From IMG/VR virus record IMGVR_UViG_3300042560_002553, positions 1 through 44,842 of that record: DNA of 44,842 bases, one strand, 5' to 3'. Source of the DNA: a virus. This document shows, piece after piece, positions 3,565-38,379 of this stretch. A model generated the notes under the pieces. That model did no database searches and had not been told where the DNA came from. It saw only the letters and a list, made by a program, of their open reading frames with translations. A program made the position numbers and the translations under genes. The first letter of the stretch is position 1, and every line of letters starts with the position of its first letter.

Positions 3565-3630
3565 ACTCTTTCTGTATTTGGCCCTGTGGTACGCTGGGCA
3601 ACTCAAAATCAAAGAGACGGGGAAAATCTC

Positions 3631-6327: not shown

Positions 6328-6330
6328 CGC

Positions 6331-6923: not shown

Positions 6924-6925
6924 TT

Positions 6926-10812: not shown

Positions 10813-10814
10813 AT

Positions 10815-12482: not shown

Positions 12483-12492
12483 GTGTTTACCT

Positions 12493-13300: not shown

Positions 13301-14620
13301 TCAGGCAGGGGCGCTGTCGAACGAGACACGCACGAACGACTCTGGACGCTTGACGGCCAGCGCAAGGCGCTGCTCGGCAAGAATCACAATGGCGTTGCGG
13401 ATGAAGAAGTCCGCGTGCTGCTCGCTGATGCGGATGTTCGCCTGCTCGCGGTCGTAGAGTTGTGCACCCTGACCGAACGAACCGACGAGCGCGGTGCCTT
13501 CTGGCATCGCGACGCTCTCCACCAACGGAACTCTCCAAACTCGCGGCTCACCGCCGAGAGCAACGGACGCGGCGACCAGGTACTGGCCGTTCGCATCCTT
13601 GGTCAGTTCAATCTGCTCCCAGTCATTCGGGTGAATGACGATGCCTGATGGCTCGTAGTAAGCCAGCAGCGACAAGGTGACCGCACGACGAAGTGCATCT
13701 GCGCGCGAGTCCTTCTTGTTGTTCTGTGCATCGGTTGCACCAGACGACCAGTTGTAGGTCTGGATGCCAGGGGTCTTCAGAACGCCGAGCAGGTTTTCAC
13801 CAGTGCCGTCGCCGAGAAGAATCTGAGCATCTTCCTGAAGACGCAGACCGTACATCAGTTCGTTGTCGATGATGCTGCGCAATTGCGGCTCATCGGCGAG
13901 AACGTTGCGGTGTGCCGCTTCCCAGTGGGCAAGCGTCTTGACGGACGTCTGCGCACCTTCGAACGACATGCTGGACTGCGGCTTGATTCCAAACTGGTTG
14001 CCAACTCGCTCAGCGACTGCTGCGGCGTTGTTGGTGAAGCCAGTCATGCGGAAGTACTCGATGACGGTCGAGGTCGTCGAACGCGCTGGGAAGAGGTCAC
14101 GGACTCTCTTGGTGCGCTTCGGCGGAACAATCATCGGGTCACGCTGCACGGTGCCGAACACTGCGTTGGCGTTGTTGCCCATCGTGCCAGTTGGGAGCGT
14201 GGTGTACACGTCCTTCACTTGGATGGAGCCGTTGTACTGGAACGGAGCGGCCATGTTTGCGCCGTTTCGACCGTTGCCGAGGGACTTGAACTCGGCCGAA
14301 GCAAGGAATGCCTCACCGATGCTACGAGTCTCGACCTGGCTGAACGACTGAGCCTGAGCGGCGGCAGCCTGGGCAACCGACTCTCTAGCCTGTGCGCCAC
14401 CCCACGACTCGACTTCGCCCATTGCCTCAAGGCCGCTGATGAGCGACTTGATTTCGCGAATGTCGGCCATGTTCTTGTCGAACGCGGTCTTCTGTGCTGT
14501 TGAAACGACGACAACGCCGTCTTCGACGCGGAAAGAATCGGCAATTGCCTTATTTTCCGACATCTTCGAACGAAGTGCGCCTTGCAATTCGTTCAATCTG
14601 CTGGTGTCTTGAGTAGACAT
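13301..14620 (-). CDS. HK97-fold major capsid protein
   Basis: 439 residues from the ATG at 14618-14620. The N-terminal region (1-99) is a helical, charged delta-type domain; the mature part shows FPARSTTSTVIEYFRMTGF, LAHWEAAHRNVLADEPQL, a RLQEDAQILLGDGTG segment, GVLKTPGI and PSGIVIHPNDWEQIEL, all typical of the Phage_capsid family. A likely protease cut is between Arg99 and Ser100 (QVETR|SIGEAF), close to the Lys103|Ser104 position in HK97. Codon use is clearly more GC-rich than in neighbouring genes, as expected for the most highly expressed protein. The 152-base gap upstream holds a possible promoter (TTGAGC, about 15 bases, TACACT on the minus strand). An in-frame ATG 15 codons upstream is less likely. 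Confidence 0.93.
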   Translation of the reverse strand: MSTQDTSRLNELQGALRSKMSENKAIADSFRVEDGVVVVSTAQKTAFDKNMADIREIKSLISGLEAMGEVESWGGAQARESVAQAAAAQAQSFSQVETRSIGEAFLASAEFKSLGNGRNGANMAAPFQYNGSIQVKDVYTTLPTGTMGNNANAVFGTVQRDPMIVPPKRTKRVRDLFPARSTTSTVIEYFRMTGFTNNAAAVAERVGNQFGIKPQSSMSFEGAQTSVKTLAHWEAAHRNVLADEPQLRSIIDNELMYGLRLQEDAQILLGDGTGENLLGVLKTPGIQTYNWSSGATDAQNNKKDSRADALRRAVTLSLLAYYEPSGIVIHPNDWEQIELTKDANGQYLVAASVALGGEPRVWRVPLVESVAMPEGTALVGSFGQGAQLYDREQANIRISEQHADFFIRNAIVILAEQRLALAVKRPESFVRVSFDSAPA

Positions 14621-14772
14621 GTGATTATTTACTTTCTTGTGAGTATTTGGACTTGTTGCTTTCATGGCTTAGGTAAGCACCCAGCCCTTGGATATCAAAG
14701 ATACAGAAAATATTTGCTGCGTAGTGTAACTACCAACAGAATTGCTCAAACGATTGTGTGTAAATTGATAAA

Positions 14773-17700
14773 TTACTTTTTGGGGAAATTTCTCTTAAAC
14801 CAATCAAGGTTGGAGTCGCCACCCCTATGTCCGCCATGCTGCTCTGACCAAGCCTTGAACTTTGGTTCGTCTATTGCTGTGAATACGCCATCTTCTATTT
14901 TTGCGATGACCCTTGGCGCAGCACCTTTGGGAACATCCATATCCCAGATATACATTGTTTGCCCTTGGCCTCTTCTCAGGCTGTCTGTTATCCAGCCGTA
15001 AAGACCATAACCTTTGTTTCGTATTTGAGAAACTGGGAGTTGGCGTTTGCCCTCGGCATTTCTTGCTCTGACGCGAGCCTCGGCCTTGTCGTATGGCAAA
15101 TAAGGAACATGGAAAACCTTCTCATACGCGTTATCTGAAGTCGTTTTGTAGTCGTGGAGCCTGTATCCAGTCCCTTCAGTAACAATGTCCATGCCCATTT
15201 CTTTGGCGTCGTTGACGGTTCTGGTTGCTGAATGAGCAGACTCCCTATGAACCATCTCGGAGCCCTTTCCTCCCTCGTATCCCTCAATTCCCATCTTGAT
15301 GAAATCTGGGTCGACATGGGCTGCGCCATTCTCGTCAGGTATTAATCCTTCTTTCTTTAGGTATTCGGTCAACGTACTTTTGCCGACTCCTCCTGGCCCA
15401 ATTATGTGATAGTGCCTTCTTTTTCCTACTGGTCTATTGCGCTTGTCTGGGGACACTCTGTCGAGAATGATTTTTGCCATTCTCTTTGCTCCAATGTTTG
15501 CGTAGTCCTGTGTTGTGGTTGGACCAGAAGACCTAAGCCTTCTACCAGAAGTATTTTCTGGGCCAAATTGAGTGTAAAAACGCAAAAGCGTCTTCCAGTC
15601 TCTATCCGAAAGGTCGCCATCTCGCTTATGTTTTTGCGCCAAAGAATATGGGATGTTGAATGACGGTCTGCCATTTGCCCAGTTAACAAAATGTGTTTTT
15701 GAGGATGTTGGCCATTCTTTTGGCGGAGTTTTGGCCATTTGCCCAAGGCTCATTGAGCGTAGCGATGATGGCCCTACCGACATACTCATTCGCTGGCTTC
15801 TTAACCCCCGTTTTGCATTTGCAACATCTACGTCATGCGTTTGAACGTCAACTTGAGTGTTCCTGTCCCCAGTCATCAAAAGGTTTATTTCTTCATCACT
15901 CAAACCTATGTCTTTAAGTTTTTTTATTGAGGCTTCGAGTGTTTCTCTGCGTCTGTCAACTTGCCTAATCGGACGGCCTCGCTCGTCTCGACGTATCATC
16001 CCACTACTTCTCAGCGTGTTTTTGCTTTGTTCTTTGAATGAGTCGCGCATTTCAAGCACTCGTCTCTGTGCTTCCTCAAGTCCGCCATCTTCTGAACTTA
16101 CATAATCGAATTGGAAACTTCCGTTATCTCCAACCCACCTAATCGACGCATTGTTTTCTCTGTCGTCTTCTATTCGGAAGAATTGATACGGGCCTCTAGG
16201 GTCATCGAGTTCATAGAAAAGTGGGGGCCGCCCCACCGAGCCAGGCTTTTTTCTTTTTCTGTATCTCACAAAACCGTTGGGAAAATGTGTTGGGTTGCTT
16301 TCTGGGCCATCTTTTCTTGGGCTTAATTTTCCATTCACTCTTGCTTCCCATTGCGGGGTATATTTTGTCCCTCTTGGGTAAACGTCTCCACCCTCGCTTC
16401 TTAGCGTGTTTGGCTTGTCGGAATCACCGAACTCCTCTATTTCGTTTCGTTTTATTGCGCGCTTCAGCAATTCGGAAGTTCTTTGCTTTGATATTCCAAG
16501 TTCATCTGCAATTCCTTGAATAGTTGCTCCGTTTCTGCGCAATTCAAGAATTTTCTTGTCCCTTTCGTCAAGGGGATTTGGCTGCCTATTTGTGCGCCTG
16601 TCCACCTCCCCCTTGGCCGTCCTTTTGACGGGTGTTTTCTCCTTTTCTTCGTCTTGCTCTAGCCATGCCTCGCCCCAAATGAGTGCTGGGTGCAAATCAA
16701 GCGCAGATATAGAAAGTCTGTCTGCATCAACTGGGTCAAGTGACGCTCCTGGTTCGTGAAGTGCATCCATTGTTGCCCTGCTGACACCAAGCGTCTGAGC
16801 CTGCTCATCTCTATTGGCCCTCAATCTTATTTTGTCGTAATTGAGTATTTCTTTTGCTTTGAGTTTTCCACCCTTTTTGATTTTGTCTGGGGTTAACCAT
16901 CTATTGTCGGTTCTTGACGCAAACCATGCTGGCTCAAAGCCCCTCTTGCCAGATGACCTTAGGCTCGTATTTATTTGTTCTGCTGCCCTAGTTGGGTCTG
17001 GCATTTCCCTTGATGTTCCATCAAAGATGAATCCATCGCCGTCAACGTCGCGTCTTACTCGTGGGTCAAGAACGCCCTCAATTCTTTCCGCCGAGCGCAT
17101 ACTTCTTCGCATTCTTCTGGAAAGTGAACCTGGACCGCTTGCTCTTCCTATTGCTCGTCCAAGTAGGCCTTTGTTTTCATTGAGTTCTTCGAAAAGTGAC
17201 TTTTTTCTGATTCTTTGTCTTCTGTTTTGTTCGTTGAGTTCGCCGCGCACGATAGTGCGAATCATTCTTCTCTGAGATTCTTGTTGGCCTCTTCTTCCAA
17301 GAAATGTGGTTCCAGCAAGCCGCGCGTAATCGGAATTACTTGTGCATGGCATCCAGACTGTTCGTCCAGTTGCTGACGGCATTCTTCTCACGCCTATGCA
17401 GCCAAGCATTCTGCTTCGTTTTCTTGCTGACTCTATGTCGGTGAATACATCTGGGTCATTGTCTCTTGGTGTTACACCAGGAATATAAGACTTGCTTCCA
17501 AGTGTCACATCTGGAAAAGCAACAATTGGAGCGGAAACTATTCCGCCACCCTCGAGAGTCGCAAAACCAAGCGGCTTTCTCTCTTTGAGTTTTTCCCAAC
17601 CCCTTTTCTTCTTTCTTCCTTTTGCTTTTCTAGTGTTGTATCTAGCGTGCAGTTCTTCAAACGCAGTTTTGTTTTTGGGTTCTGCCGCTTTTGAAATTTT

Positions 17701-17829
17701 TTCCAATTCTTCTGGCGTTTCGCACGGCATCCATTTGCCGTCTTTTTTGTGTGCGCCAGTGCAACCAATCCATTGGGCAGCACGAAGGGCAAAGACCCTT
17801 GAGTTGGTGTCTGACTGCCCATTCGCCAT
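14773..17829 (-). CDS. giant modular protein with C-terminal zeta-toxin-like kinase
   Basis: 1018 residues. In order: two Cys motifs of the form GC.G..(x)..WMPC (22-36 and 143-162); a basic region; LGRAIGRA (223-230) and the calcium-loop module GVLDPR..RDVDGDGFIFDGT (252-272) followed by PDPTR; an HTH-like segment (about 325-390); a second, sigma-type HTH (GATIQGIADELGISKQRTSELL, 434-455); several LRS linkers (290, 476, 605, 675, 690, 765); and a P-loop kinase domain (about 803-985). The kinase has Walker A GPGGVGKST (811-819), VDPDFIK (839-845) in the place of the catalytic Asp of zeta toxins, IVTEGTGYR, and ARVRARNAEGKRQLP with the phosphate-binding arginines. Zeta toxins phosphorylate UDP-sugar precursors of the cell wall. 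It is probably packaged in the virion and released by proteolysis (inference). Confidence 0.8.
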   Translation of the reverse strand: MANGQSDTNSRVFALRAAQWIGCTGAHKKDGKWMPCETPEELEKISKAAEPKNKTAFEELHARYNTRKAKGRKKKRGWEKLKERKPLGFATLEGGGIVSAPIVAFPDVTLGSKSYIPGVTPRDNDPDVFTDIESARKRSRMLGCIGVRRMPSATGRTVWMPCTSNSDYARLAGTTFLGRRGQQESQRRMIRTIVRGELNEQNRRQRIRKKSLFEELNENKGLLGRAIGRASGPGSLSRRMRRSMRSAERIEGVLDPRVRRDVDGDGFIFDGTSREMPDPTRAAEQINTSLRSSGKRGFEPAWFASRTDNRWLTPDKIKKGGKLKAKEILNYDKIRLRANRDEQAQTLGVSRATMDALHEPGASLDPVDADRLSISALDLHPALIWGEAWLEQDEEKEKTPVKRTAKGEVDRRTNRQPNPLDERDKKILELRRNGATIQGIADELGISKQRTSELLKRAIKRNEIEEFGDSDKPNTLRSEGGDVYPRGTKYTPQWEARVNGKLSPRKDGPESNPTHFPNGFVRYRKRKKPGSVGRPPLFYELDDPRGPYQFFRIEDDRENNASIRWVGDNGSFQFDYVSSEDGGLEEAQRRVLEMRDSFKEQSKNTLRSSGMIRRDERGRPIRQVDRRRETLEASIKKLKDIGLSDEEINLLMTGDRNTQVDVQTHDVDVANAKRGLRSQRMSMSVGPSSLRSMSLGQMAKTPPKEWPTSSKTHFVNWANGRPSFNIPYSLAQKHKRDGDLSDRDWKTLLRFYTQFGPENTSGRRLRSSGPTTTQDYANIGAKRMAKIILDRVSPDKRNRPVGKRRHYHIIGPGGVGKSTLTEYLKKEGLIPDENGAAHVDPDFIKMGIEGYEGGKGSEMVHRESAHSATRTVNDAKEMGMDIVTEGTGYRLHDYKTTSDNAYEKVFHVPYLPYDKAEARVRARNAEGKRQLPVSQIRNKGYGLYGWITDSLRRGQGQTMYIWDMDVPKGAAPRVIAKIEDGVFTAIDEPKFKAWSEQHGGHRGGDSNLDWFKRNFPKK

Positions 17830-17838
17830 GAGCGAAAC

Positions 17839-18243
17839 CTACTTCTTTGGTTTATAAGCCTGCATTAATGCAGATATTGGAGTTTCTGGAAAGCGCTTTT
17901 GATAAAGACGTGCCTCATCCAGGTCCTCTTTGAATTCTTTTTCAACGTCATTGAATGCGGATGCCAGAAGTTTCGGGTCGACATCATAAATTGTCTTACC
18001 CTCTTTTATTGCATTCTTTTGAGCAACAACAACGAGAGAGTGAACGTCCCTGATTGCTTCCGCAAGTTGCTCGCCACGCTCCGTTATTGATGGGAATCCC
18101 CAATTTGGAGTGCCTGGTGTGTAGTCCCAACTTTCCTCGCCTCCATCTATATCCCTGAATGGCGGGTAGTCCATGAGCGTCAGGAGTTCACGTTCTTTTT
18201 CGGACATTTTCTTCATTCCGTCTGAATAGTTCATTTTTGTCAT
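17839..18243 (-). CDS. hypothetical helical protein
   Basis: 134 residues, starting with an ATGA overlap with the stop of the giant gene upstream. It is acidic and mostly helical (EQLAEAIRDVHSLVVVAQKNAI, LLASAFNDVEKEFKEDLDEARLYQKRF). No family is recognised. Lying between two giant effector-like genes, it might be a partner, chaperone or antidote for one of their enzymatic domains, but this is speculation from position only. Confidence 0.65.
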   Translation of the reverse strand: MTKMNYSDGMKKMSEKERELLTLMDYPPFRDIDGGEESWDYTPGTPNWGFPSITERGEQLAEAIRDVHSLVVVAQKNAIKEGKTIYDVDPKLLASAFNDVEKEFKEDLDEARLYQKRFPETPISALMQAYKPKK

Positions 18244-21200
18244 CCGTATCTGCTGGTTATATCGTCCCTACGTTTAATAAGGGTATCAGCAAGTTGCTTT
18301 GCTCTGGCTGGGTCGGTGACAACAGCCGATACGGTCTTCCTAATGTCATCGTCGGTTATGACGGAAAGACCTTGCGCTTGACGCTTTAGTTCTGCGGAGT
18401 CCATGTTGCGGAAATCGTATGTTCCGTCTTTTTGCATGGTGTCCATTTCTCCAACTGAGGGCCCGAATGGGGTTGAACCGCTGCCCTTTCTTGCGCCTTG
18501 TGCCCTGAAGTCCAGGGAGCCACCGACGTCAATTCTCACCGCATTCCCATTGCCATCAATCAAAATGTTGTCGTTCAATGGGGCATCCCAGTTAGCAAGC
18601 CATGCGTCAATAACAAAGCCCTTTCGCGCTTCATCATTATCACTTGTTCCTGTTGGCATTCTTACATTTTGCAACATTCTGGAAAGCATTACTGGCTCGT
18701 TATTGTTGGTGCCCATCTGCAAATCTGCGGTTGGAACTCCAGCAAGTTCGTAGAGTTTTGATGCAAGTACTTCCGTCTGCATTCTTTCCTCTGCCTGTTT
18801 TTGCGTTTCGCCGTTCTTTCTTAGTTTTGTGTAATAGCGTGTTCCGTCTGGCGCGGTCAACATCTTTGCTGGGTTTGAGCCAGTTGTTGGTGGGGTGCTT
18901 GATTTCCATGCATCAGTATTAACTGGGCCGCCAGGTGCATTTGGCGCACTTGGCGTCGATGGCGGCTGCGGTGCTTGTGTTTGTGGTGTTGGCTGCGTTG
19001 GTGTGTTTTGCTTTGCTCCAGCCCTAGTTCTTCTTGGTCTTCTCTTTGCCTCGCCGACCTGTTTTGCATTTCTTGTCCAAGAGGTCCACGCCTTTGGTCG
19101 TCTTGCGCCATTGCTGTCAGATATCATTGCATCAGCCTGGACTTTTGTTGCTGGAGCCTGGAATGCCGCAAGAATTGTTCTGTTGTGCAACAACATCGGA
19201 GTTCCCATGCCACTGCCATTGTTTGTATCGATTACGTCAACGCCAATGATTGGGGCAATCATTTCTGGCGAACGCTGCTTAGAGAAACGATAGAGATAGT
19301 CAATAGAAGAGAGCAACTTTTCCTTTGTTTCGGCAATTCTTGCCTGCTCATCCTGCGTGCCCTTTGGCATCTTTGACAAAGCATCCATCCTGTCTCTTAG
19401 TTGCTTGACAATTTGTCCGCTTCTCGACGCCTCGGAGGCGAGTTCTGGCATAACTGCATCTATTTCTGCAACAATCTCTTCTGGCTCCATGGCTTTTGCT
19501 GCTTCCCTGCCGCCAAGTACCTTGAACCTTTCGATTATTGGGCCAGTCAAATCCCCCATTCGTGAGTGCTCTTGTTTAATTTCACTGTGCATCATCACGT
19601 CGGCCGTAGGTGGAATCATGGCGATGATTGTGTGCCTGTCGTCTTGGCCGCTTCCGTGATAACCCTCCCACTCACCTTGATATGCAAAGTATTCGCCGAC
19701 CCCGTATGCCGAACCACCTTGTCCAGGAATGAATCTGCCCTCCTGGGTAAGGAAGCGCTCAACATATGATTCGCTGTCAACTTTTTCGTGGCCAGTTCCA
19801 CGGACCATTACTTGCCAACCAGCATCGAGAAGCGCTTTAACTTCGTCTTCCTTGACAAGCGTTGGCGTTTCTGCGTATCCAGCGTTTTCCCAAATCCTCT
19901 TAAGCAGGGTCTTGTGTTCGTTTTCTACGTCTTTTTCTGTTGCGCCTTTGCGTTTCTTGCTTTGAATTCCAATCAGGTCGTTATCCAGGGCGTGCAATAG
20001 GTCAACAAAACCGTCAGATATCTCAAGAGTATTTTCTGCTGGATTCGTCTTGACTATTCCAGACTCATCTTTTCTTGCCTTCGAGTCTGCCGCTAGTTCG
20101 TCTGCGTTGCGAGACTTGCGGAATCTTGAGAGCATTGTTCTCTTCATTGCTCGAGCGCGCAATTTTCGTTTCTTTAGTGCAAGTTCTGGGTCAAGGGCGA
20201 CACCTTCCCTGATTCCACCAGCGCGACGTGCAGCACGAAGTTCAATTGCCTTTTCTCTCTCTGGGTCCATTCTTCGCAATCTCTGGAACAAGGACAAACG
20301 CTTTTCTTTCTTTTTTTCGCTTATGCCTCGTTCTTTCTTTAGGTCAATTGCGTCTGGCGCCTTTTTCCTTTGTTCACCGCCCGCATATCCAGCAATGCTT
20401 GAAGAACCAGTCTCCCAACCCTTTGGAACTTTTCCATCTTTGTCTTTGATTATTTTTGCTATTTTCTTTTTAACTCTTGGGTGCAGGTGCTCAAGTGCGG
20501 AAAAATCACCGTCTTCAATCATGTTTAATATTGTTTGAGCATCATCAAGTGCCTGTTGCTGCTCTTTATATCCGTTTTTGACGTTACTGATTGTTGCGGC
20601 TCCGTCCTCGTCGAGTTTTAGTTCGCGAGAATCCTTGTCCGAAACTTCAAACTTTTCAATGTCGCCGTTGGCAACAGCCTGGTCAAGTCTAAGAAGCATT
20701 TCGCTGATGTCACCAGAATTCAATGGGTCTTCCTCTGGGCGCTTTTCATATCGTCCGCCCTCCTTGCCCTTGCCTCGTTTGTATGCTGCAACAACACCTT
20801 GCTTCTTGGCGCCCTTCTTCGTGGCTGCAAACCAGTACTTGTTAAAAAACGATTTGAGTTTCTTGTCAATCGCCTTCTTTTCTTGTTCGAGCGCTTCTTG
20901 AACTGCTTTCTTCTGCTCTGGTGTCAGGGAATCCCAAACTGCTCCATCCCCCTCCATCTTGTCGCGGCCGTACTTTCTCTCCATCGCGCCGTGACCGAAT
21001 TTGCCACCAGGGCCGACTCCTGGGCCTCGCGTTGCGCCAGACTTTGGAACTGGAGTTCGCGTAGTGTCATCGCCAGTTCCTCCAGAACTTCGCAGGGTTG
21101 TGCCCCTTGGGCGTGCCGCCCTCTCCGTGGTGGCAAGCATTCTGCGCGAACTCAACTGCTGTTGAACTGGTCTTCTGCGACCACCAGAACGCAAAGTATT

Positions 21201-23993
21201 GCCGCTGGGGTTGAGCCTCTTTTCAAGGTCAATTAGCGCAACCCTTTCGTCTTCCGTAATATCTTGGTTATTGTCGAGAATATTGCGTACTGTTTCGCGC
21301 AGATATTCCATTTGGTCATCTGGGATGTCTCTGCCGTCGCGAATTTTGTTGAGCGCGTCGACAAAGTCCATTTCGCCAGCGCCATCAGCCATTTCCCTAA
21401 TTCCATCGAGGTTGCCACTTGAGCGCAGGGTGCGGCCCTGCATTAATCTTTCTTCTCGCCCTGGAAGTTTTCGTGTTAGTGGCCTGGCAGGAGCCTTAGG
21501 GAAATTTCCTGTGGCTAAGTCACGCTCAAATTGCTTAAATAGTTCTTCGAGTGGGTCCTTTTCTGGTTTGAGGCCAGGCCCCTTGTTTCGGTCATAGTCG
21601 CCACCGCGCTCAATTAGATTTTCTAGATACTTCTTTCTCTTTTTGAGCATTTCGCGTTGTCTTTGATATCTTTTTGCAATTTCTGGGGTCATCGACTGAG
21701 AACCTATTGGGGCACGAGCATCTACCTCTATCTCCCTATTTAAAGAGTCAAGTTCCTCTTCTGCCGAGTTGAATTCTCTCCTGAGGAGGCGAACTGCATC
21801 TTCCTGGCTCATTGGTCTTCTTTGCCCACCTGAGCGAAGTGTTCTGCCGCCGCCTGGTCGATTTCTGATGCTGTTTTCTAGGTCAATAAGTTCGACGCGC
21901 TCATCTTCAGTAATGTCTGGATTGTTGTCAAGGATATTCCTGAGTGACTCAAGAAGATAATCACGCTGGTCGCCAGTTACTGATTCTCCACGCTGAATTT
22001 TGCCTAATGCATCAACAAGTTCTTCTTCATTGGCGCCCTCTGCTGAGTCAGTTATTTTTTTCAGTGTGCTTGACCTAAGGCCGCGATTTTTTTCGCCATC
22101 ACTGCCGCGGCTTAGTGCTCTGCGAACTTCCTCAACGGCATCTAGTTTGCTGCCGTATAACGCTTCGACTTCATCTGCAGGGTATAGCGATTGGTTGCTT
22201 TTTACAGCATCCCAGTCAGAAACGGACAACAATGCTGTCTCAAGATTTGGGTATGTTTGTTTGTCAAACCACTCATCAAACTCATCCGACCATTCACCTG
22301 GTTCGTCCCTGTTGCCGTCACGCCAAGACTGACTCGAACCGTACATTTCTATTTCGTATTTGCCAGAAGGGGTTTTTGAAATTGACCCCCGATACGTGTT
22401 ATATAAATCATTGCCTTCATCATCTTCACTTATTTTAATCTTCTGTCCAGCATCAAGTTTTTCGGAAAGATTACGGAAGTCATCCATGTTTTCCACATTA
22501 AGGAGCCCTCTGTAGTCTTCGTATTCTGGTTGTGAGCCACGCGAAGCGAGAGTGCGCCCTGCTCTTGAGCGAAGCGTATTTTTACCACTCTTTGCACCAA
22601 CTCTTCTTTCCAGGTCAATGAGTTCAACCCTCTCGTCTTCGCTGATGTCTGGATTATTGTCCAAGATGTTTCGCAGTGACTCCAGGAGGTAATCTTTTTC
22701 GCCTCTACTGAGCGTTTCACCTCTTCTGTGTTTTTGTAGAGCCGTTACAAGCAAATCCTCATTTGCCCCATCTGCAGAATCAATAATTTTTTCAATTGTG
22801 CTGGACCTAAGACCACGATTTCTTCTGGTCTCTGACCCCATATACGTTCGAACAGGTTGCAGTTGTCTACGACGGGAGGAGTCAAACCCGCGTTCTCTTG
22901 CGGCACGGCTGGTTTCTTCGGTCGTCCGACCAAAGATTTCACGTATCTCCCTATCGCGCGCTCTTGCTCGGGTGTCTGTGATGGGGTTGTATCCGATTGT
23001 TCCATCAGTTGGTCTTTGGTCTGGCTCGTTGAGCAATTGAGAAAGCCTGTTGCTGCGCGATGATGAACGCAATCCCCGTCTTGTCGAAGGCGCATTTGGT
23101 TTTTGAATAAATCTTGTGGGGTCTGGCATTTCTCGGAATGTTCCGTCAAAAATCATTCCATCGCCGTCAACGTCTCTTCTCTTGCGTGGGTCAAGAACAC
23201 CAGAAATAAATCTTGATGCAGTTCCCCTCATGTTTCTTGCTCGACCCCTATTGGGTGTCAATCCTCTACCAGCAGAACCAGCCGCCCTGCCGATTGCCCT
23301 TCCTAGGGAGGCTTTTACGTAAACATCAATAATTTCTTTTGTGTTCGAGCCAAGTTCTGCTCTTTTTATTGTTGGCAATCCTGACGCTTCCTGGATGCCC
23401 TTGTTTACTTGGCCGATAATCTTTTGCCCAAACTTACGCTCTGCGCCACGCGACATCTTCTTCTGAATCTCTGACCTTACGTAAGTTTTCGTTGCCCTAT
23501 TCGGCTTTGCCACAAATTGCTTAGTGTGGTTATTGAACGCGAGTTCGTGCATTCTTACTTTTAGCGAAATTTCGTTATGGGCAACTTCTTTTCTGAAGTT
23601 CTTCGCCTTGAAGTTAATTGACTTAACTTTTGATGTCCAGTCGGCGAGAATTGGTCCATCAACAAAAGATGGATACTTCGAGGTGTTTGGGTTTGCCTCG
23701 CCCTTAAGTCTGAATGTTATTATTTTTCCTTCGGCTACAGATTCACCAGCGGCCACTGATTCGTCTGAGTCAAGAATGATGCTTTTCATCATTTGGTCTG
23801 ACAAACCCCTGAACTCCCCAACGGAAACGTTTGCGGGAAGTTGAGTTAGGTCAACTTTATTTTCATTTGCCCACTTGGACCACTCAACGCCTTTTTCTGA
23901 CCATCCGTAAAACTTTAGGTGGCCGTGCGACTTGACGACGACGCCAAAATTGACGCCTCTTACAACGTTCTTTAGGACTGCGTACTGTCTCAT
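18240..23993 (-). CDS. giant modular protein: calcium-loop tag, ADP-ribosyltransferase-like and kinase-like domains
   Basis: 1917 residues; the start overlaps the upstream stop (ATGA). In order: an N-terminal unknown domain (1-225); SLGRAIGRAAG and the tag GVLDPRKRRDVDGDGMIFDG (265-284) with PDPTR; eight LRS linkers (308, 395, 474, 639, 719, 856, 934, 967); three copies of an 80-residue acidic helical unit; a Lys/Arg-rich zone (1040-1300); an ADP-ribosyltransferase-like domain (about 1380-1610) with VMVRGTGHE (Arg1398) and GSAYGVGEYFAY (1427-1438); a Pro/Thr linker (1663-1705); and a kinase-like domain (1706-1917) with an N-lobe GTRYYTKLRKNGE and a C-lobe DAWLANWD..NDNILID..VRIDVGGSL. This last pattern resembles HipA/PI-kinase-like phage domains, with the Asp-Asn and IDVGG residues binding metal. 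Likely virion-packaged effectors (inference). Confidence 0.75.
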   Translation of the reverse strand: MRQYAVLKNVVRGVNFGVVVKSHGHLKFYGWSEKGVEWSKWANENKVDLTQLPANVSVGEFRGLSDQMMKSIILDSDESVAAGESVAEGKIITFRLKGEANPNTSKYPSFVDGPILADWTSKVKSINFKAKNFRKEVAHNEISLKVRMHELAFNNHTKQFVAKPNRATKTYVRSEIQKKMSRGAERKFGQKIIGQVNKGIQEASGLPTIKRAELGSNTKEIIDVYVKASLGRAIGRAAGSAGRGLTPNRGRARNMRGTASRFISGVLDPRKRRDVDGDGMIFDGTFREMPDPTRFIQKPNAPSTRRGLRSSSRSNRLSQLLNEPDQRPTDGTIGYNPITDTRARARDREIREIFGRTTEETSRAARERGFDSSRRRQLQPVRTYMGSETRRNRGLRSSTIEKIIDSADGANEDLLVTALQKHRRGETLSRGEKDYLLESLRNILDNNPDISEDERVELIDLERRVGAKSGKNTLRSRAGRTLASRGSQPEYEDYRGLLNVENMDDFRNLSEKLDAGQKIKISEDDEGNDLYNTYRGSISKTPSGKYEIEMYGSSQSWRDGNRDEPGEWSDEFDEWFDKQTYPNLETALLSVSDWDAVKSNQSLYPADEVEALYGSKLDAVEEVRRALSRGSDGEKNRGLRSSTLKKITDSAEGANEEELVDALGKIQRGESVTGDQRDYLLESLRNILDNNPDITEDERVELIDLENSIRNRPGGGRTLRSGGQRRPMSQEDAVRLLRREFNSAEEELDSLNREIEVDARAPIGSQSMTPEIAKRYQRQREMLKKRKKYLENLIERGGDYDRNKGPGLKPEKDPLEELFKQFERDLATGNFPKAPARPLTRKLPGREERLMQGRTLRSSGNLDGIREMADGAGEMDFVDALNKIRDGRDIPDDQMEYLRETVRNILDNNQDITEDERVALIDLEKRLNPSGNTLRSGGRRRPVQQQLSSRRMLATTERAARPRGTTLRSSGGTGDDTTRTPVPKSGATRGPGVGPGGKFGHGAMERKYGRDKMEGDGAVWDSLTPEQKKAVQEALEQEKKAIDKKLKSFFNKYWFAATKKGAKKQGVVAAYKRGKGKEGGRYEKRPEEDPLNSGDISEMLLRLDQAVANGDIEKFEVSDKDSRELKLDEDGAATISNVKNGYKEQQQALDDAQTILNMIEDGDFSALEHLHPRVKKKIAKIIKDKDGKVPKGWETGSSSIAGYAGGEQRKKAPDAIDLKKERGISEKKKEKRLSLFQRLRRMDPEREKAIELRAARRAGGIREGVALDPELALKKRKLRARAMKRTMLSRFRKSRNADELAADSKARKDESGIVKTNPAENTLEISDGFVDLLHALDNDLIGIQSKKRKGATEKDVENEHKTLLKRIWENAGYAETPTLVKEDEVKALLDAGWQVMVRGTGHEKVDSESYVERFLTQEGRFIPGQGGSAYGVGEYFAYQGEWEGYHGSGQDDRHTIIAMIPPTADVMMHSEIKQEHSRMGDLTGPIIERFKVLGGREAAKAMEPEEIVAEIDAVMPELASEASRSGQIVKQLRDRMDALSKMPKGTQDEQARIAETKEKLLSSIDYLYRFSKQRSPEMIAPIIGVDVIDTNNGSGMGTPMLLHNRTILAAFQAPATKVQADAMISDSNGARRPKAWTSWTRNAKQVGEAKRRPRRTRAGAKQNTPTQPTPQTQAPQPPSTPSAPNAPGGPVNTDAWKSSTPPTTGSNPAKMLTAPDGTRYYTKLRKNGETQKQAEERMQTEVLASKLYELAGVPTADLQMGTNNNEPVMLSRMLQNVRMPTGTSDNDEARKGFVIDAWLANWDAPLNDNILIDGNGNAVRIDVGGSLDFRAQGARKGSGSTPFGPSVGEMDTMQKDGTYDFRNMDSAELKRQAQGLSVITDDDIRKTVSAVVTDPARAKQLADTLIKRRDDITSRYG
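21186..21434 (-). repeat. acidic helical repeat, copy 3
   Basis: Residues 854-936 of the 1917-residue protein: TLRSSGN, then IREMADGAGEMDFVDALNKI, YLRETVRNILDNNQDITEDE and LIDLEKRL, closing with the next LRSGG linker. It is the most diverged of the three copies. Confidence 0.85.
21831..22082 (-). repeat. acidic helical repeat, copy 2
   Basis: Residues 638-721 of the same protein: GLRSSTLKKITDSAEGANEE, LVDALGKIQRGE, YLLESLRNILDNNPDITEDE and VELIDLENS, bounded on both sides by LRS linkers. It is nearly identical to copy 1. Confidence 0.9.
22566..22814 (-). repeat. acidic helical repeat, copy 1
   Basis: Residues 394-476 of the same protein: GLRSSTIEKIIDSADGANED, LVTALQKHRRGE, YLLESLRNILDNNPDISEDE and VELIDLERR, ending at TLRSR. 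The boundaries of the repeat coincide with the LRS linkers, so linker and domain were duplicated together. Confidence 0.9.
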
Positions 23994-26715: not shown

Positions 26716-27166
26716 CGTTTTTTGTTCCTCGTTTTAGCCTTTTCGTAGATTTGTTTCGTCCGACAAAGTTGACCATCATTCTTGTCGAAGGAACCTGAGA
26801 TTTTAGTGAAACAAGGAAATCAATTGCCCTGTTTTCAAATTCCAATACCTTCTTGCGTCTCCTCAGCACGTCTTCATTTATGACAACGTCTTCGAGAAGT
26901 TCGCGCTCGACTGGCAAGGCTTTCTCTACAAAAACAGAATACCAGTACGTGCTCGTTTTGGATTCATGTCCGTGCCAAAGTTTTTTATGAAATTGAGTAT
27001 TGGTTATTTTATGTATGTTGTGGTTCCAGTCAACAAATCTCCAAAAATTTGTTACTTTGGTGTCACCAAAACGACCAACCAGGATGCAGTCGGAGTCCTT
27101 GTGGATGGAATCGACAACGTAGTAAACCTTTGTGTCAAGTAGTTTTCCAACAAGTACAGATTTCAC
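26708..27166 (-). CDS. hypothetical protein
   Basis: 152 residues from the GTG at 27164-27166, overlapping the TGA of the 2118-residue gene (GTGA). The first half is beta-rich with aromatic residues (VGKLLDTKVYYVVDSI, NFWRFVDWNHNIHK, TSTYWYSVF); the second half is a basic helix and an Arg/Lys tail. No family is recognised. Its position suggests a co-regulated partner of the giant protein. Confidence 0.6.
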   Translation of the reverse strand: MKSVLVGKLLDTKVYYVVDSIHKDSDCILVGRFGDTKVTNFWRFVDWNHNIHKITNTQFHKKLWHGHESKTSTYWYSVFVEKALPVERELLEDVVINEDVLRRRKKVLEFENRAIDFLVSLKSQVPSTRMMVNFVGRNKSTKRLKRGTKNDE

Positions 27167-30100
27167 TTTTTTTCCTCTTTGTCAATAATAAATGGTGCAA
27201 AGGCATACAAAAGAACAGTAAATGGAATTTCTGTTGTTTCCTCATAGTCATCTGTCTGCTCGGCTGTTTTTATTCCGTCACCAAGACTTTCGAATAGTGG
27301 CCTCACTGCTGCCTGCGCGGCTCCAGAAAGGGATTGCGTTGCGCTCATCATTCTTCCGCCCTGACTGGCACTACTCCACGGCCTGACCTGTATGTCGGGT
27401 CTACGGGAAAACAAAAACCATGCCGTCCATGCTTCAGCAAGTGATTCCTGGGGGCTGCTTGACCCATAGCCAGAAACGCTTGGAATATTGGCGTAATCAG
27501 AATCAATTTCGGAAATTTGGCCGCTTTGGTATATGCGCTTTTTGATTTCTTCACCCTCAGCGCCAGTAATCCACATGGGAATTATCGGCTTTAATCTCAC
27601 CCTCCCGTCACTTGCATCTCTCCCTAGGTAATCCAGGAGGTGGCCCATTTCGTGCACCATGTTTCCATACGTCATTCTTTGTGCAACCATCAAGTCCATG
27701 TCTGCATCAGAAACATTGCCAACACCAGTTAATGTAAACGCTTCTGAAACAAGGCCTATTCCCCTAGATTGACCAAGTCCCCTTATTCCGTTTTGTCTTA
27801 ACTGTTCTGCGTCTTTGCGCGCAATTTCAACAATGTTTTTTGGGTACATTTCCAATTGAAGTTTTTGTTTACCGAGGCCAAACAAAACTCTTCGGTCTAG
27901 CCCAAAACTTCCCATTGTTGCGCTTCTTGCCGTCCAGCCAGAATTAAAATTAACTTTGAATTTTTCTTTTTTAAGGAGTTTGGCGACGTCCCCCAAATTG
28001 TTTAGAACGTCGTCAAGCGCCTGCATTGCGGCATATGCAGCGGCTTCTTCTTCTGGATGTTTTTGACCGTCTGGCAGGCCACCCTTTACATCAATACCCC
28101 ATTTTTCACTGAAATACTGTTTGACCTGCTTTGGCGTTCTTCCAAATTTTGTTTTATTTTCTTCCGTAGTAGCAACCCGCGGGAGACTCTTGTCGTCAAG
28201 ACCGTAGTCCAAATCTGATGGCCCCTCGTTTATTTTTTGACGTGTTGTTCTTCCTGATGAGCGAAGCGATGAAGTTCTTCTTCCAAGTCGTCTCGATATT
28301 CCGCTGTCATCTATCACCATCGCTCCAGCGGACCTGAGGCTTTGCTTTGGAGTTGCGGAAACCGCCCCACCAGAACGCAATGTGCTCATTGCTTGTGGTT
28401 TTGTTTGCTCAAATTCTTCATCCGAAGACACTGGAATCCCAGAATCTTTAATCAAATTCCTAATTCTTACTGCTGCACCACGCTTTACCAAATCCTCTAT
28501 ATCATGGTCCTCTGTTAATCCAGTTTCTTTCATGGTTGTTGGATATGAAGAATGCCTCTCAAAATCGTTTCCTCTACGGTCAAGAAAAGTCACTTTTGGT
28601 TTTTTGCCAGTTGGGTCTGAAACCCTAGATTCAATTTCCGACCTTACTCGCTTTCTTTCCCTAAGTTTTAGAGACAGATTTGCTCTGTCCGCCAGCAATT
28701 CTCTAATCGATTTGACAATATTTTTTTTATTTTCTTGTGGTTCTTCGGAAAGCATTTTTTCAACCAACTGAATATCTTTATCTGGCATTACTCCAGAAAG
28801 AACTTGTCTTGCAGTGGATGGCGAAACATCATTTGAGCGAAGTTCACCTTCGCTCATGTATCGCTGCTGAAAATCTGGTTCTATCCTGATTTCTTCGACG
28901 TCATCCATCGTGAAGCCGCCACCGACTATTGCCTCTGTGTAGTAGCGACCAGTTGCCCCCTGACCATCGTACGCCGTGACGTGGGCGTGATTTTTGGAAA
29001 CACTTGCATCCAACAATGCCGCAATGCGAGACTGCGTGGTGTCGATTCTTGGTCCGCCAAACATGCCAGAGTCGATAGCGCTTGACCTTTGCAGTAAGCC
29101 CGCTTCGAGCAATTCATCATCCGTTGCGCTTCCGTCAAGTGCAACTGGAGTTCTCAATCCATTGAGGGAATCTCCGAAAGTTATTACCGTTCTTTGGGAT
29201 GCTTCTGGTCTCAAAACTATTTCGGACAACCCATATTGATATGGAACTGGGTCTACGGTTTTTCCTTCGTAGAGATTCTGGCCACCTGGTTCATTTGTCA
29301 GAACATCTTCGTTAAACATGTCCATGTTTTCGCCAAAGGAATTCTCTTCTATTGCTTTTCGTCGTCTCTTTGCATTCCCAGCCTGGAATTCAAGTTCGTC
29401 AACATGCAGGTAATAGCCATGGGCAGGGCGAAGTGAATCGTCGGCAGACTCTGGTATTCCCAAAAGAAGTTCGGCGGTTTTTCGCTTCTTTGGGTCAGAG
29501 GCAGCCTGAGAGCCAGATGAATCATGCGTTGTTCTCCATCTGCCAGTTTTTATAAAGCCCATTAACGGTGAGTCCTGGCCGTCGCGAATTCCAGAAAACC
29601 CACTTCCGCGTATCCTGAAACGTGCTCGTTTATCCAGTCCCTCAACCTGCTTCTTCAGTGTTTCGACCAGTATTTGTCTTATTTCTTCTGGTGATTTATC
29701 CTTCATTATTTCAGAAACCTCTGGAGATAGACCTGGCAACTTGCCAACCTTCAGTTGGGCAACGGCATTGTCTAGCGCTTTGTCAACCCGCACTTTTGCT
29801 TCTTCTGGACTTTCAAAGTCGTGGGTTTCGTCCGTAACAATTCCACGTGAAGAATCGCGTTTTGCTTTTAGTTGGTCGCGCAATTCATTGAGTCTTTGGC
29901 GCACTGGCTTGCCCCATGTTATTCCCTGGGCTTCCATTCTGTCTTTGATTGCCACGCTCTGTGCATCTGGTTCACTTGGCACTTGCGTATTTGGACGAGG
30001 TACTGCGACTTCTCCGCGGCCAGCAGAGCGCAGTGAGCGCTTTTGTTCTGCTTGCTCCCTTCTTTCAACCCTATTGATTGCCTTGCGAAGCGTTATTTTG

Positions 30101-33100
30101 TCATCTAGGGAACTTGTTTTTTCTTCTGCTCTTCTTAATTCGCCCTTCTTTTTTGCAAGCGTTTCAGAAATTCTTTCTTGAGAAATCAACGACGCCATAG
30201 CCACGCCGTCGTCGCGAACATCAATTATCTCTATTTCCCCAGGGGGGAGAATAATAGAACCAACTTCTCCTCTCCCAGTTCCAGGTGTGTAGTCTGGCAA
30301 ACCAGAAAATCCTTCTGGAACATTGAGAATTAATCTTTGCGTACTTAGTGGGCCGTCTGGCGCCTGAGTTGTGAACAGGTCATCTGTTGATTTTAGTAAT
30401 CCAGTGAAGTGATTAGAAAGTTCGTATCTTCCACCAATATATTGAGTCGCTGGCCAACCAACTGAACCGAAAGGAACAACTATTTCCGCCGCAACCCCAT
30501 TTGGCAAAAATGAGTTTCCAACAAGGTCTACAAATGGAATAAATTCATTTTCTATTTCGTTTATTATCTTTTCGCCCTCACCAAGAGCAAGCGAATTGAT
30601 TATCGACATTTCACTAGTCGGTTTTGCCCATCTTCTATTTCTCCACCTACTTTCCAAAACTTGTTGCTGCTGAGGGGTGGCAGACTCCATTACGGCATCC
30701 CTTACAGATTTACCCCACCTTGAAACATCACCTCTTCCGTCAAAAGATGCAGTTGATTTCAGCGACAGTGAAGTTAATCGCCTATCCCTTTCTTCCATTT
30801 CAAGCGCAGATGAAATCTTTTGTGCACTTTCAATAATTTGGTTAATGTCTGACCGAGATATCCTCTTGGCCATTCGCCCTATTCTCTTGAGTTTTTCTTT
30901 TCGTGTTTCTACTAACTCAATTGGTGGGACAATCGCCTCGCGGACTTTATCCAAATCTTTGCCCAGATGCAATGGCGCAAGAAAAGCCTCTATTTCTGGC
31001 GTTTTTTCAATTAGGCCCATTTCCACGCCAGCAGATATGTCTGCCTGCATTTCCAGGAATGTAATTCCAGCCCAACGATTTACTCCCTGTCTCATTGCGG
31101 CGGTTTCGTCAAATCCGTTTCTCTGTGCAGCCGAAACAATATTTTGCGCTTGACCCAAAGCCCTGTTCAGACCTTGGGATTCTGGCGTTTCGCCTCTCGC
31201 TGCAAGCATTTTGTTCCTAGCGTTTAATGAATTAAAAATTTCTTCCATTTCCTCAATGGAGCCTGCTTTTGCCAATTCGTTAAGGTAGAAAGCGGTGTAG
31301 TAATGAGATGGTCCGTAAACTCCACCAACCTTGTTGTCTACCAAAACGCCAATTATTTCCCCAATATTTCCAATGGCAGAACTCATTATTGCTGGATTAC
31401 TTATGATTGATGCGTAGTCAAATTCCTGGCCGCTTGCGTCAGTGTATGGAACTCCCTCAATGCAAATTTCTCTTGCTACTTCAAGTGCCTCGGCATTCGT
31501 CATTCCTGGATTTCTGCTTTTTATAAATTCAGAAACAATTTTCAATTGTCTTCCGTGCACGAGTTCGTGATTCATTACGAATAGTCCGTGGGCCATTCCG
31601 CCAAAATGTTCTGCGGTTAGTTCGGTTTGATACCCACTTCCTTCTTTTATTTTTCTTACTTGTTCGCCAAATGATTTGAGGTCGCCAAGGTACGAGCCAA
31701 GAAGGCGTCTTCTGTTTTCAGCAGTTACGACTTCACCAATCGCTTGCAATTTTGCAATTTCTGTTCCAGCAGTTCCACTTGGCTCATATAAGTGGAAACC
31801 AGAATCATTGAGTGTTTCTGCTGGGTGGGAGACCAGCGTTCCGATAATGTCAATGTTTATTCCTATTCGCCCATTTTCTACGTAACACTCGGCAAAAAAC
31901 GGGTCATCTGGGTCTGTCTGAACGATGCTTATTGACCCGATATCGTTTGTCATTTCTGGAGATTGTCGACGCTGCCTAATTATCTGCATCATCGTTCCAA
32001 CTTCGTAACTTTGTGCCTTTGAGTGCGCAAGCATTGCCATCGATAAAAACGTTTGTGCTTTTTCGTCATCTGGGAAAACGTCTTTTGGTGGTGTGCCGTT
32101 TTGAATCGCTGAAATTATTTTTTCTACACCCTCATCCCCATATTTTTCACTAATTTTTTTTAATTCTTTATCAGAAATTCCTTCGATTTTTCCCGCGTAT
32201 ATGGCCTGCTGAACGCTCTCAGCCGCAATCAAGGCGAGATTCCTTCTGTGTTGCAGCATCGCCATTTCTGGATTGTCGTGAAAGTTTTCCCCGTAATAAT
32301 TACGCAGGTCGATATTCCATCCTTCTTCTCGCAACTTATGCAAAGCAAGTGCGGTGCCGCGTTGAACAGATGCTGGGTCAGACTCATCTACTTCAATCCC
32401 AAGTGAACGAATTATTTCCAGCGCATCGCGTTGTTGCCTGCGTATTTCGTCTTTCATTTTTTCTCTTTGCGCAGCAGTTTTGGCAAGTTCATTTATTTCC
32501 GCGCTGGAAAGTTCTGGATATGCTTTGCGTAAAGCCGTTTTGAACTTTTCTTCGTATGTATCTGGGTCAACTATTTCGCCAGTGCCCCTCCCTATAGTTG
32601 CGAGTTCCTCTTCCGCTACTGCCAATTCGCGCGATGCTCTTCTTGCCTCTCCTGCGACACTCTCTGCCTCCAGCGTCTCTCTGGATATTGGCCTTCCGTC
32701 TGGACCAAGCAAGGTTGGTGTGCCAGTTGAACGTAGGGAGGTGCGCTCCCTTAATGTTCCCTTGCTATCTCTGCTAAATGGTGTCGCCGCATCAATTTTT
32801 CGAATTGAATCTTGCAATTTAAAACCAAATCTCTGAGCAAGACCCACCATTGCCCTTGCTACAAGTGGCGAAAAATCAAAACAATTACTTCCGACTTCAT
32901 CAGTGAATTGGTTTGCTGCTGGAACCCCTGGGGGGCATCTGAATTTTCCGTCGGCATCAACAACTATTCCTATCGCCCTTGCCGCAGCCTGGCCTATGTT
33001 CCCAGCAGACTGTCCTATGGTTCGCCCAAGGCTTTTTGCCTCGATGGCACCAGTTCTTTTATTTTTGTTTGCCGAAACAACTCTTACTGATACTTTATTT

Positions 33101-33519
33101 CTTTGTTCTGCCATTGCCCTTCTGGCAACTTCGACCATATTTTTTGGTGCAATTTTTTTTCTTGGGTCAAGCCAACCCATGTTCGCAACGTCGCCCATTT
33201 GCCCATTTTGGTTTATCTTTCGTGGCCTAATTTCAAAATACTGCCCTGGCTTGGCTTTTGCATCTGGGTCGAAAATTCCAGTTCCCATTCGCATGAATTT
33301 TGATTTTGCTTTTTTGCGCTTTTCCTTGTTATCTGCAGATGGGTCACTTGCAGAACGGCCAAGAGATTTGACCGAAATATCTGGAGAAAATGGATAAGCA
33401 ACCACCTGTTTTTGGGCGTTGATGAACCTACTGATTCTCTCCTGCGGCGTCTCTTTTGCCTGCGGGAACAGTCGAGCGCTACTTAGTATGCGCGTAACTA
33501 CGACTTTACGTTCCTGCAT
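27163..33519 (-). CDS. giant 2118-residue modular protein: two HExxH sites, DUF3626-like and ADP-ribosyltransferase-like regions
   Basis: The largest gene of the window, with AAAAGG upstream of its ATG. In order: a basic N-terminus with KSLGRTIGQSAG and CPPGVPAANQFTDEVGSNC (195-213); an LRS linker (262); a helical zone; a metallopeptidase-like domain with HELVH (651-655) and a possible third ligand in FLEMQAD (821-827); a beta-rich region (1003-1105) with GRGEVGSIILPPGEIEIIDV that resembles ADP-ribosyltransferase toxins; LRS (1163); a DUF3626-like domain (1298-1550) with RPAHGYYLH, YGLSEIVLRPEA, TFGDS and YYTEAIVGGGFTMDDVEEI; three LRS linkers (1714, 1728, 1752); and a second metallopeptidase-like domain with HEMGH (1956-1960) and downstream ESLAEAW. 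Family names are from memory of motifs; the HExxH motifs are certain. Effector role inferred. Confidence 0.75.
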   Translation of the reverse strand: MQERKVVVTRILSSARLFPQAKETPQERISRFINAQKQVVAYPFSPDISVKSLGRSASDPSADNKEKRKKAKSKFMRMGTGIFDPDAKAKPGQYFEIRPRKINQNGQMGDVANMGWLDPRKKIAPKNMVEVARRAMAEQRNKVSVRVVSANKNKRTGAIEAKSLGRTIGQSAGNIGQAAARAIGIVVDADGKFRCPPGVPAANQFTDEVGSNCFDFSPLVARAMVGLAQRFGFKLQDSIRKIDAATPFSRDSKGTLRERTSLRSTGTPTLLGPDGRPISRETLEAESVAGEARRASRELAVAEEELATIGRGTGEIVDPDTYEEKFKTALRKAYPELSSAEINELAKTAAQREKMKDEIRRQQRDALEIIRSLGIEVDESDPASVQRGTALALHKLREEGWNIDLRNYYGENFHDNPEMAMLQHRRNLALIAAESVQQAIYAGKIEGISDKELKKISEKYGDEGVEKIISAIQNGTPPKDVFPDDEKAQTFLSMAMLAHSKAQSYEVGTMMQIIRQRRQSPEMTNDIGSISIVQTDPDDPFFAECYVENGRIGINIDIIGTLVSHPAETLNDSGFHLYEPSGTAGTEIAKLQAIGEVVTAENRRRLLGSYLGDLKSFGEQVRKIKEGSGYQTELTAEHFGGMAHGLFVMNHELVHGRQLKIVSEFIKSRNPGMTNAEALEVAREICIEGVPYTDASGQEFDYASIISNPAIMSSAIGNIGEIIGVLVDNKVGGVYGPSHYYTAFYLNELAKAGSIEEMEEIFNSLNARNKMLAARGETPESQGLNRALGQAQNIVSAAQRNGFDETAAMRQGVNRWAGITFLEMQADISAGVEMGLIEKTPEIEAFLAPLHLGKDLDKVREAIVPPIELVETRKEKLKRIGRMAKRISRSDINQIIESAQKISSALEMEERDRRLTSLSLKSTASFDGRGDVSRWGKSVRDAVMESATPQQQQVLESRWRNRRWAKPTSEMSIINSLALGEGEKIINEIENEFIPFVDLVGNSFLPNGVAAEIVVPFGSVGWPATQYIGGRYELSNHFTGLLKSTDDLFTTQAPDGPLSTQRLILNVPEGFSGLPDYTPGTGRGEVGSIILPPGEIEIIDVRDDGVAMASLISQERISETLAKKKGELRRAEEKTSSLDDKITLRKAINRVERREQAEQKRSLRSAGRGEVAVPRPNTQVPSEPDAQSVAIKDRMEAQGITWGKPVRQRLNELRDQLKAKRDSSRGIVTDETHDFESPEEAKVRVDKALDNAVAQLKVGKLPGLSPEVSEIMKDKSPEEIRQILVETLKKQVEGLDKRARFRIRGSGFSGIRDGQDSPLMGFIKTGRWRTTHDSSGSQAASDPKKRKTAELLLGIPESADDSLRPAHGYYLHVDELEFQAGNAKRRRKAIEENSFGENMDMFNEDVLTNEPGGQNLYEGKTVDPVPYQYGLSEIVLRPEASQRTVITFGDSLNGLRTPVALDGSATDDELLEAGLLQRSSAIDSGMFGGPRIDTTQSRIAALLDASVSKNHAHVTAYDGQGATGRYYTEAIVGGGFTMDDVEEIRIEPDFQQRYMSEGELRSNDVSPSTARQVLSGVMPDKDIQLVEKMLSEEPQENKKNIVKSIRELLADRANLSLKLRERKRVRSEIESRVSDPTGKKPKVTFLDRRGNDFERHSSYPTTMKETGLTEDHDIEDLVKRGAAVRIRNLIKDSGIPVSSDEEFEQTKPQAMSTLRSGGAVSATPKQSLRSAGAMVIDDSGISRRLGRRTSSLRSSGRTTRQKINEGPSDLDYGLDDKSLPRVATTEENKTKFGRTPKQVKQYFSEKWGIDVKGGLPDGQKHPEEEAAAYAAMQALDDVLNNLGDVAKLLKKEKFKVNFNSGWTARSATMGSFGLDRRVLFGLGKQKLQLEMYPKNIVEIARKDAEQLRQNGIRGLGQSRGIGLVSEAFTLTGVGNVSDADMDLMVAQRMTYGNMVHEMGHLLDYLGRDASDGRVRLKPIIPMWITGAEGEEIKKRIYQSGQISEIDSDYANIPSVSGYGSSSPQESLAEAWTAWFLFSRRPDIQVRPWSSASQGGRMMSATQSLSGAAQAAVRPLFESLGDGIKTAEQTDDYEETTEIPFTVLLYAFAPFIIDKEEKK

Positions 33520-38309: not shown

Positions 38310-38379
38310 CAAAAATCCTTTTTGCCCTAGCCATAATAAACGACAGACAAAGGCACTCGTTGGAAGTATTGCATATCAA

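Follow-up and report, generated by a model that had tools for sequence, protein, structure and literature searches.

A zeta toxin-like kinase is the last module of a probable giant polyprotein encoded in the head operon of an uncultured tailed phage

The window analyzed here, a stretch of 44,842 nucleotides from an uncultured tailed phage (IMG/VR record IMGVR_UViG_3300042560_002553), encodes a zeta toxin-like kinase as the last module of a giant head-operon protein. Four such giants (1018, 1917, 2118, and 1099 aa) have their domains divided by one short repeated motif, LRS, and their polyprotein architecture is well supported. We consider it fairly probable that they are polyvalent polyproteins of the virion, cut by the prohead protease of the phage into separate effectors, the zeta kinase among them. 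An earlier note on this DNA had described the kinase behind a single LRS linker at residue 765. This copy is indeed present, but it is one of six in the 1018-aa protein and of 22 across the four giants; the note missed the wider multiprotein polyprotein system in which this kinase is a single module.

The giants are encoded between the portal and capsid genes (Table 1), in an operon with the order portal, 1099-aa, 446-aa, and 2118-aa proteins, two small proteins, 690-aa, 1917-aa, and 134-aa proteins, the open reading frame (ORF) with the zeta domain, and capsid. This order was kept in nine related genomes, as far as their contigs extend. The nearest cultured relatives were the Gordonia phages GMA6 and Gray and the Brevibacterium phage Cantare (43 to 47% for the capsid protein and 38 to 43% for the S78 prohead protease). 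Their head-region annotations include a VIP2-like ADP-ribosyltransferase toxin, an RNA ligase, and a helix-turn-helix (HTH) protein, that is, comparable cargo, but as separate genes; their protease is likewise a separate protein of about 420 to 480 aa, and the linker motif was not found in these three phages. Judging by these cultured relatives, an actinobacterium is the likeliest first guess for the host. A search for relatives in cellular or prophage DNA gave one weak match, on a Halosimplex plasmid. A wider scan detected relatives of the S78 protease in at least 539 viral contigs, of which 80 were kept, while no match among 50,697 phage records reached 60% identity. The gene after that of the capsid (10815-12530) encodes a Lys/Arg-rich DUF6321 protein (E 6e-30) without LRS sites. 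Elsewhere in the window, Pfam matches comprised a B12-dependent (class II) ribonucleotide reductase (3586-5550), MazG (6594-6935), GP88 (9575-10435), a staphylococcal-nuclease-like protein (10411-10827), Rad52 (42510-43160), and a PD-(D/E)XK nuclease (43099-43935), and there were two tRNA genes, tRNA-Ile(TAT) (3145-3218, minus strand) and tRNA-Arg(TCT) (6255-6328, plus strand).

Table 1. Head-operon features of the window. The arrow marks a presumed cleavage point.
Feature	Residues	Position (nt)	Strand	Basis
Portal protein, head operon start		38409..40442	-	Phage_portal, E 4.3e-52
1099-aa protein, N-terminal S78 prohead protease, two LRS sites (36816-36830, 35397-35411)		35013..38312	-	Peptidase_S78, E 2.5e-10
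2118-aa giant, six LRS sites, two HExxH (31555-31569, 27640-27654)		27163..33519	-	Sites, motifs; domains of relatives
1917-aa giant, eight LRS sites, three 80-aa repeats bounded by sites		18240..23993	-	Site and repeat analysis
134-aa protein beside zeta ORF		17839..18243	-	No family match; adjoins ORF in all but one relative compared
1018-aa head-operon protein, C-terminal zeta-like kinase		14773..17829	-	Zeta_toxin, Sigma70_r4, and DUF3721 matches; syntenic in nine related genomes
LRSSG site, after shared DVDGDG module	290	16948..16962	-	Sequence
LRSEG site	476	16390..16404	-	Sequence
LRSSG site	606	16000..16014	-	Sequence
LRSQR site	676	15790..15804	-	Sequence
LRSMS site	690	15748..15762	-	Sequence
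LRSSG site, directly before kinase module	765	15523..15537	-	Present in each genome's own version
Last module, LRSSG site and zeta-fold kinase	765-1018	14773..15537	-	Pfam, AlphaFold model, PDB fold search
Catalytic core: K817 (Walker A), D840/D842, E885, T887, R919/R923, R929		15043..15399	-	Ten-homologue alignment; residue roles per PMC6356619
GPGGVGKST	811-819	15373..15399	-	Sequence
VDPDFIK	839-845	15295..15315	-	Sequence
TEGTG	884-888	15166..15180	-	Sequence
RVRARNAEGKR	919-929	15043..15075	-	Sequence
HK97-type major capsid protein, presumed processing site ETR↓SIGEAF		13301..14665	-	Phage_capsid, E 1.8e-45; processing-region comparison

The repetition of the motif is far beyond chance. 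LRS.G ranked first for enrichment when patterns were counted without supervision, with 15 occurrences against 0.24 expected; in 200 shuffles it never appeared more than twice, and no pattern of the same shape exceeded 5. The 22 LRS copies are encoded by 18 different nucleotide 9-mers, and therefore the conservation is at the protein level. The same codon diversity rules out a DNA repeat or recombination site as the cause.

Each related genome carries its own version of the motif. A blind pattern count retrieved the LRSSG version in two relatives, while others had LxSGR (G004), GLASST (G005), RGARS (G006), RGLxSST (G007), or GFAS (G011 and G012), and G008 showed just a weak motif, RGMxS. Enrichment was again strong (observed versus expected, 19 versus 0.25 for L.SGR, 14 versus 0.15 for L.SST, 18 versus 0.29 for RGA.S, and 10 versus 0.1 for FAS.S). 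Each relative has its version across its own giants, and orthologous junctions bear the version of their own genome; the junction before the zeta module, for instance, reads GRRLRSSG, SGRLRSGR, GRGARSSS, NRGLRSST, or TRGFASSS depending on the genome. The wider scan added the versions LSSG, FSSGR, GLRS, and GLAS. The count reached 374 motif instances on 36 contigs, partly overlapping. The versions have as their common core a hydrophobic residue, any residue, and Ser, followed mostly by Ser, Gly, or Thr. In the partial S78-headed protein of contig L101, the top enriched pattern was an A-N-L-T-like repeat in place of the linker motif.

These sites behave as module borders. Among nine Pfam-bearing proteins, none of 79 sites fell inside a Pfam domain, against 11.4 expected (P 5e-6, with some of the proteins related and the sites not fully independent), and an ArdcN domain and its zincin remain together between two sites. 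The full-length model of the 1018-aa protein, which was poor overall (mean of 58), gives a pLDDT of less than 50 to the segments that contain its six sites. The three copies of the 80-aa module in the 1917-aa protein start and end at sites. Modules also come and go between sites: the 130-aa module delimited by sites 476 and 606 of the 1018-aa protein is absent from all relatives compared, and two modules, one kinase-like and the other of 70 aa, occupy different polyproteins in different genomes. The N-terminal segment shows higher conservation than the cargo and is followed by the first site at a conserved distance; comparison with the capsid-targeting propeptides of T4 suggests that this segment serves packaging. 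In three giants, a calcium-loop-like module, RRDVDGDGxIFDGT (17014-17055, 23139-23180, and 36891-36932), is found ca. 30 residues before the first LRS site; a degenerate copy (11457-11495) occurs in the DUF6321 protein, and the module is possibly a packaging signal.

What lies between the borders is diverse. In relatives, S78 heads polyproteins of 3066 to 3522 aa with 8 to 16 sites, which carry ArdcN, MPTase-PolyVal, UvrD, sigma-4 HTH, and WYL domains in various combinations, while members of the 2118-aa family contain RNase_T, an ADP-ribosyltransferase toxin domain (ADPrib_exo_Tox), and weak GNAT and KTSC matches. Single chains thus join biochemically unrelated domains (zeta and sigma-4 HTH here; S78, ArdcN, MPTase-PolyVal, UvrD, and WYL in relatives), and the cargo varies between close relatives. 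It is very improbable that the giants are ordinary structural or scaffolding proteins of the head in which the resemblance of some domains to enzymes is without significance: their place in the head operon and their shared N-terminal segments would fit such a role, but the variable cargo of close relatives, with ArdcN, MPTase-PolyVal, UvrD, RNase_T, and ADP-ribosyltransferase domains, argues against it.

Further regions of the window resemble enzymes by eye and had no Pfam match. Residues 1397 to 1436 of the 1917-aa protein (19686-19805; VRGTG...GVGEYF) look like an ADP-ribosyltransferase core and are largely invariant in ten relatives. A HipA/PI4K-type kinase look was noticed at the C terminus of the 1917-aa protein (18240-18920) and in part of the 690-aa protein (23990-26062); the former module lies in the S78 polyprotein of G011 and G012.

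The cargo domains of the relatives are typical of polyvalent proteins. These phage and plasmid proteins are likewise large and multidomain, are predicted to accompany the DNA into the host, and mix ArdC-N, zincin MPTase, ADP-ribosyltransferase (ART), kinase, helicase, GNAT, and HTH domains (Iyer, Burroughs, Anand, de Souza, and Aravind 2017, PMC5512222). A zeta-like kinase fused to MuF in phages was already listed in that survey, where assemblin-like peptidases were placed at C termini only and processing was ascribed mainly to zincins. Unlike the polyvalent proteins described in 2017, those of this phage group have domains divided by a phage-specific repeated motif common to several proteins, modules that move between proteins, and, in one of the chains, a prohead protease at the N terminus.

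Within this phage, one short motif is common to the presumed processing sites of several head-operon proteins, and in each checked genome that covers the protease region of the operon, S78 is itself a segment of a polyprotein with such sites. Phage-specific motifs of prohead proteases have precedents. T4, phiKZ, 201phi2-1, and SPN3US each process capsid and ejection proteins with a prohead protease that cuts at a short motif particular to the phage, in which one position is fixed and the others vary between phages (A-x-E in SPN3US; cleavage after Glu in T4, phiKZ, and 201phi2-1) (PMC5694885, PMC7411985), and in phage P1 both DarA and the capsid protein are cut by Pro (PMC12810830). The systems of T4 gp21 (IPI-III and Alt), phiKZ, and SPN3US thus also place a phage-specific short motif in capsid and ejected proteins. 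In these phages, however, it is mainly propeptides that are removed, whereas here a single chain would be split at many sites, giving several folded modules, and the phage has a prohead protease of the HK97 (S78) type, presumably with x↓Ser as its site. The mature capsid protein of HK97 begins with Ser, and the solved mature HK97 chain, which lacks the first 103 residues, agrees with this. In most capsid proteins of the group, the region presumed to be processed contains x↓S(I/L)G(E/D); the LSSG genomes have LSS there, and this phage has ETR↓S. The match to the linker motif is just partial, and a capsid cleavage site always equal to that motif was therefore discarded. By analogy with these prohead proteases, S78 probably cuts at hydrophobic-x↓Ser.

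The sequence of the protease does not visibly follow that of the sites. The S78 domain is 81 to 98% identical across genomes with differing motifs, and of the contigs L074 and L077, which are one core-S78 residue apart, one has LSSG sites and the other FSSGR, LSSGR, and MSSGR sites mixed. On these grounds, coevolution of the linker motif with the S78 catalytic domain was not supported. Given that S78 is nearly constant while the motifs differ, either its specificity is permissive or another protease, such as a zincin, does the cutting. The second option, in which the zincin of the 2118-aa protein would cut the same polyproteins, either inside the head or once they are injected, with S78 maturing the capsid only, appears unlikely to us. 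Its HExxH (H651, E652, and H655) is invariant in 10 of 10 homologues of the 2118-aa protein, the zincin region varies between genomes (20 to 54% identity) while S78 is nearly constant, and zincins have been proposed to process polyvalent proteins (PMC5512222); yet this region had no Pfam match in the window, and it is S78 that belongs to a site-bearing polyprotein wherever that part of the operon could be checked. We give still less weight to a motif that is never cut, that is, a flexible interdomain linker or a binding site for the head or scaffold, made uniform by the spread of duplicated modules. Sites do lie between modules in disordered stretches, some modules are duplicated along with their sites, and no covariation of motif and S78 was visible, but nearly every copy has different codons, the motif is common to unrelated junctions in all four proteins, and a pure linker need not keep hydrophobic-x-Ser.

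Cleavage by S78 remains the preferred reading, and the kinase, the last module of the 1018-aa chain, would be among its products. The kinase region spans residues ca. 779 to 1018. All four motifs listed by the earlier note (GPGGVGKST, VDPDFIK, IVTEGTGYR, and RVRARNAEGKR) occur in the order described, and its assignment of a C-terminal zeta toxin-like kinase to a head-region protein was borne out by a match to Pfam PF06414, Zeta_toxin (E 4.4e-8; 33.2 bits versus a curated cutoff of 22.3). A structural comparison with zeta toxin, as proposed there, pointed the same way. For the last 255 residues, an AlphaFold model based on an alignment of 10 phage homologues had a pLDDT of 86.5 and a pTM of 0.85, and the best PDB matches of this model were zeta (1gvn and 3q8x; E 3e-8) and PezT (2p5t), followed by AvrRxo1 (E 3e-7). 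Metabolic kinases, a closer match to which had been named as counterevidence, ranked lower together with polynucleotide kinases (E 6e-5 or worse). Based on this model, the zeta toxin fold of the module is well supported. TM-scores to zeta were only 0.54 to 0.60, and the module is thus a distant member of the superfamily. Single-sequence and profile searches of the domain against solved structures gave nothing significant, so that its kinship to zeta is visible by fold search only. A tblastn search found no such domain in cultured phages, and a fold search of the whole 1018-aa protein against viral structures returned mainly zeta matches and uncharacterized proteins.

The catalytic residues are largely in place. 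K46, D67, E116, R158, and R171 are essential in zeta (PMC6356619), and their counterparts here, assigned by motif and spacing rather than by superposition, are K817, D840 or D842, E885, R919 or R923, and R929. K817, D840/D842, R919/R923, and R929 were invariant in 10 of 10 homologues, and E885 was kept in 8 of 10; the equivalents of E885 and T887 are gone in G011 and G012, the two most distant. In two other relatives, L016 (8939-12322) and L017 (8474-12355), the ORF runs about 550 residues beyond the zeta domain, with RHEWFH (of HExxH type) in the extension, and the E-G-T motif is replaced by T-G-A, possibly marking a degenerate kinase.

A UDP-N-acetyl sugar is the first candidate for the substrate. 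Given that AvrRxo1 structures score almost like zeta in the fold search, a different small molecule is possible. AvrRxo1 is an NAD kinase, and we rate at somewhat less than even the chance that the kinase is real but acts on NAD or a nucleic acid end, for example in countering host defense or in RNA repair. The proximity of AvrRxo1, the polynucleotide kinases that follow it, and the modest TM-scores to zeta speak for this reading; against it, zeta and PezT are the top fold matches, and the module retains the arginines and the E-G-T motif of zeta (E116 and T118). A role as a toxin is possible.

As the earlier note had stated, no epsilon-type antitoxin was recognized nearby, nor any other candidate adjoining the kinase. 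Its suggestion that the 134-residue neighbor might take that role found no support: this protein had no Pfam or PHROG match, and it goes together with the ORF as a whole, also in G012 despite the degraded kinase motif of that genome. The module shares fold and catalytic residues with epsilon/zeta and PezAT but, unlike them, is fused into a head-operon polyprotein and has no recognized antitoxin. A dedicated one is perhaps unneeded, since the kinase would be packaged as part of a precursor.

Put together, the following sequence of events can be proposed. In each giant, a conserved N-terminal segment, which probably directs the protein into the head, would be followed by cargo modules separated by a phage-specific hydrophobic-x↓Ser-(Ser/Gly/Thr) site, here L-R↓S-x-G, with the zeta-like domain as the last module of one virion polyvalent polyprotein. 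The prohead protease would probably cut these sites during head maturation, as happens to the ejection proteins of T4, phiKZ, and SPN3US, so that the capsid would contain the folded effectors as individual proteins, ready to leave it together with the DNA. Injection and action inside the host are what membership in the polyvalent class would imply. Once inside the cell, the kinase would act on a nucleotide-linked substrate by phosphorylation, with slower wall growth or a changed host metabolism as the possible result at an early stage of infection.

The design is a variant of polyvalent proteins and of ejection proteins processed by prohead proteases, and we found no earlier description of it in the openly licensed literature searched. 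A true polyprotein strategy is known from RNA viruses. We hold it slightly more probable than an even chance that a widespread group of uncultured tailed phages uses one as well. The anti-host enzymes to be injected would then be joined in giant chains, one of which starts with the prohead protease; cleavage at a repeated site peculiar to each phage would yield the separate effectors that are packaged, and the same sites would also serve as borders at which modules are exchanged. If so, the motif would be a border marker, and cutting the chains in silico would list the packaged effectors of each phage, including many without a recognizable family. How polyvalent proteins release their separate activities, a question dating from 2017, would become testable, and a new role would be suggested for the prohead protease. 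Since at least 539 contigs carry a relative of this S78 and none of the phage records has one at 60% identity or more, this may be a common yet unstudied way of delivering anti-host enzymes.
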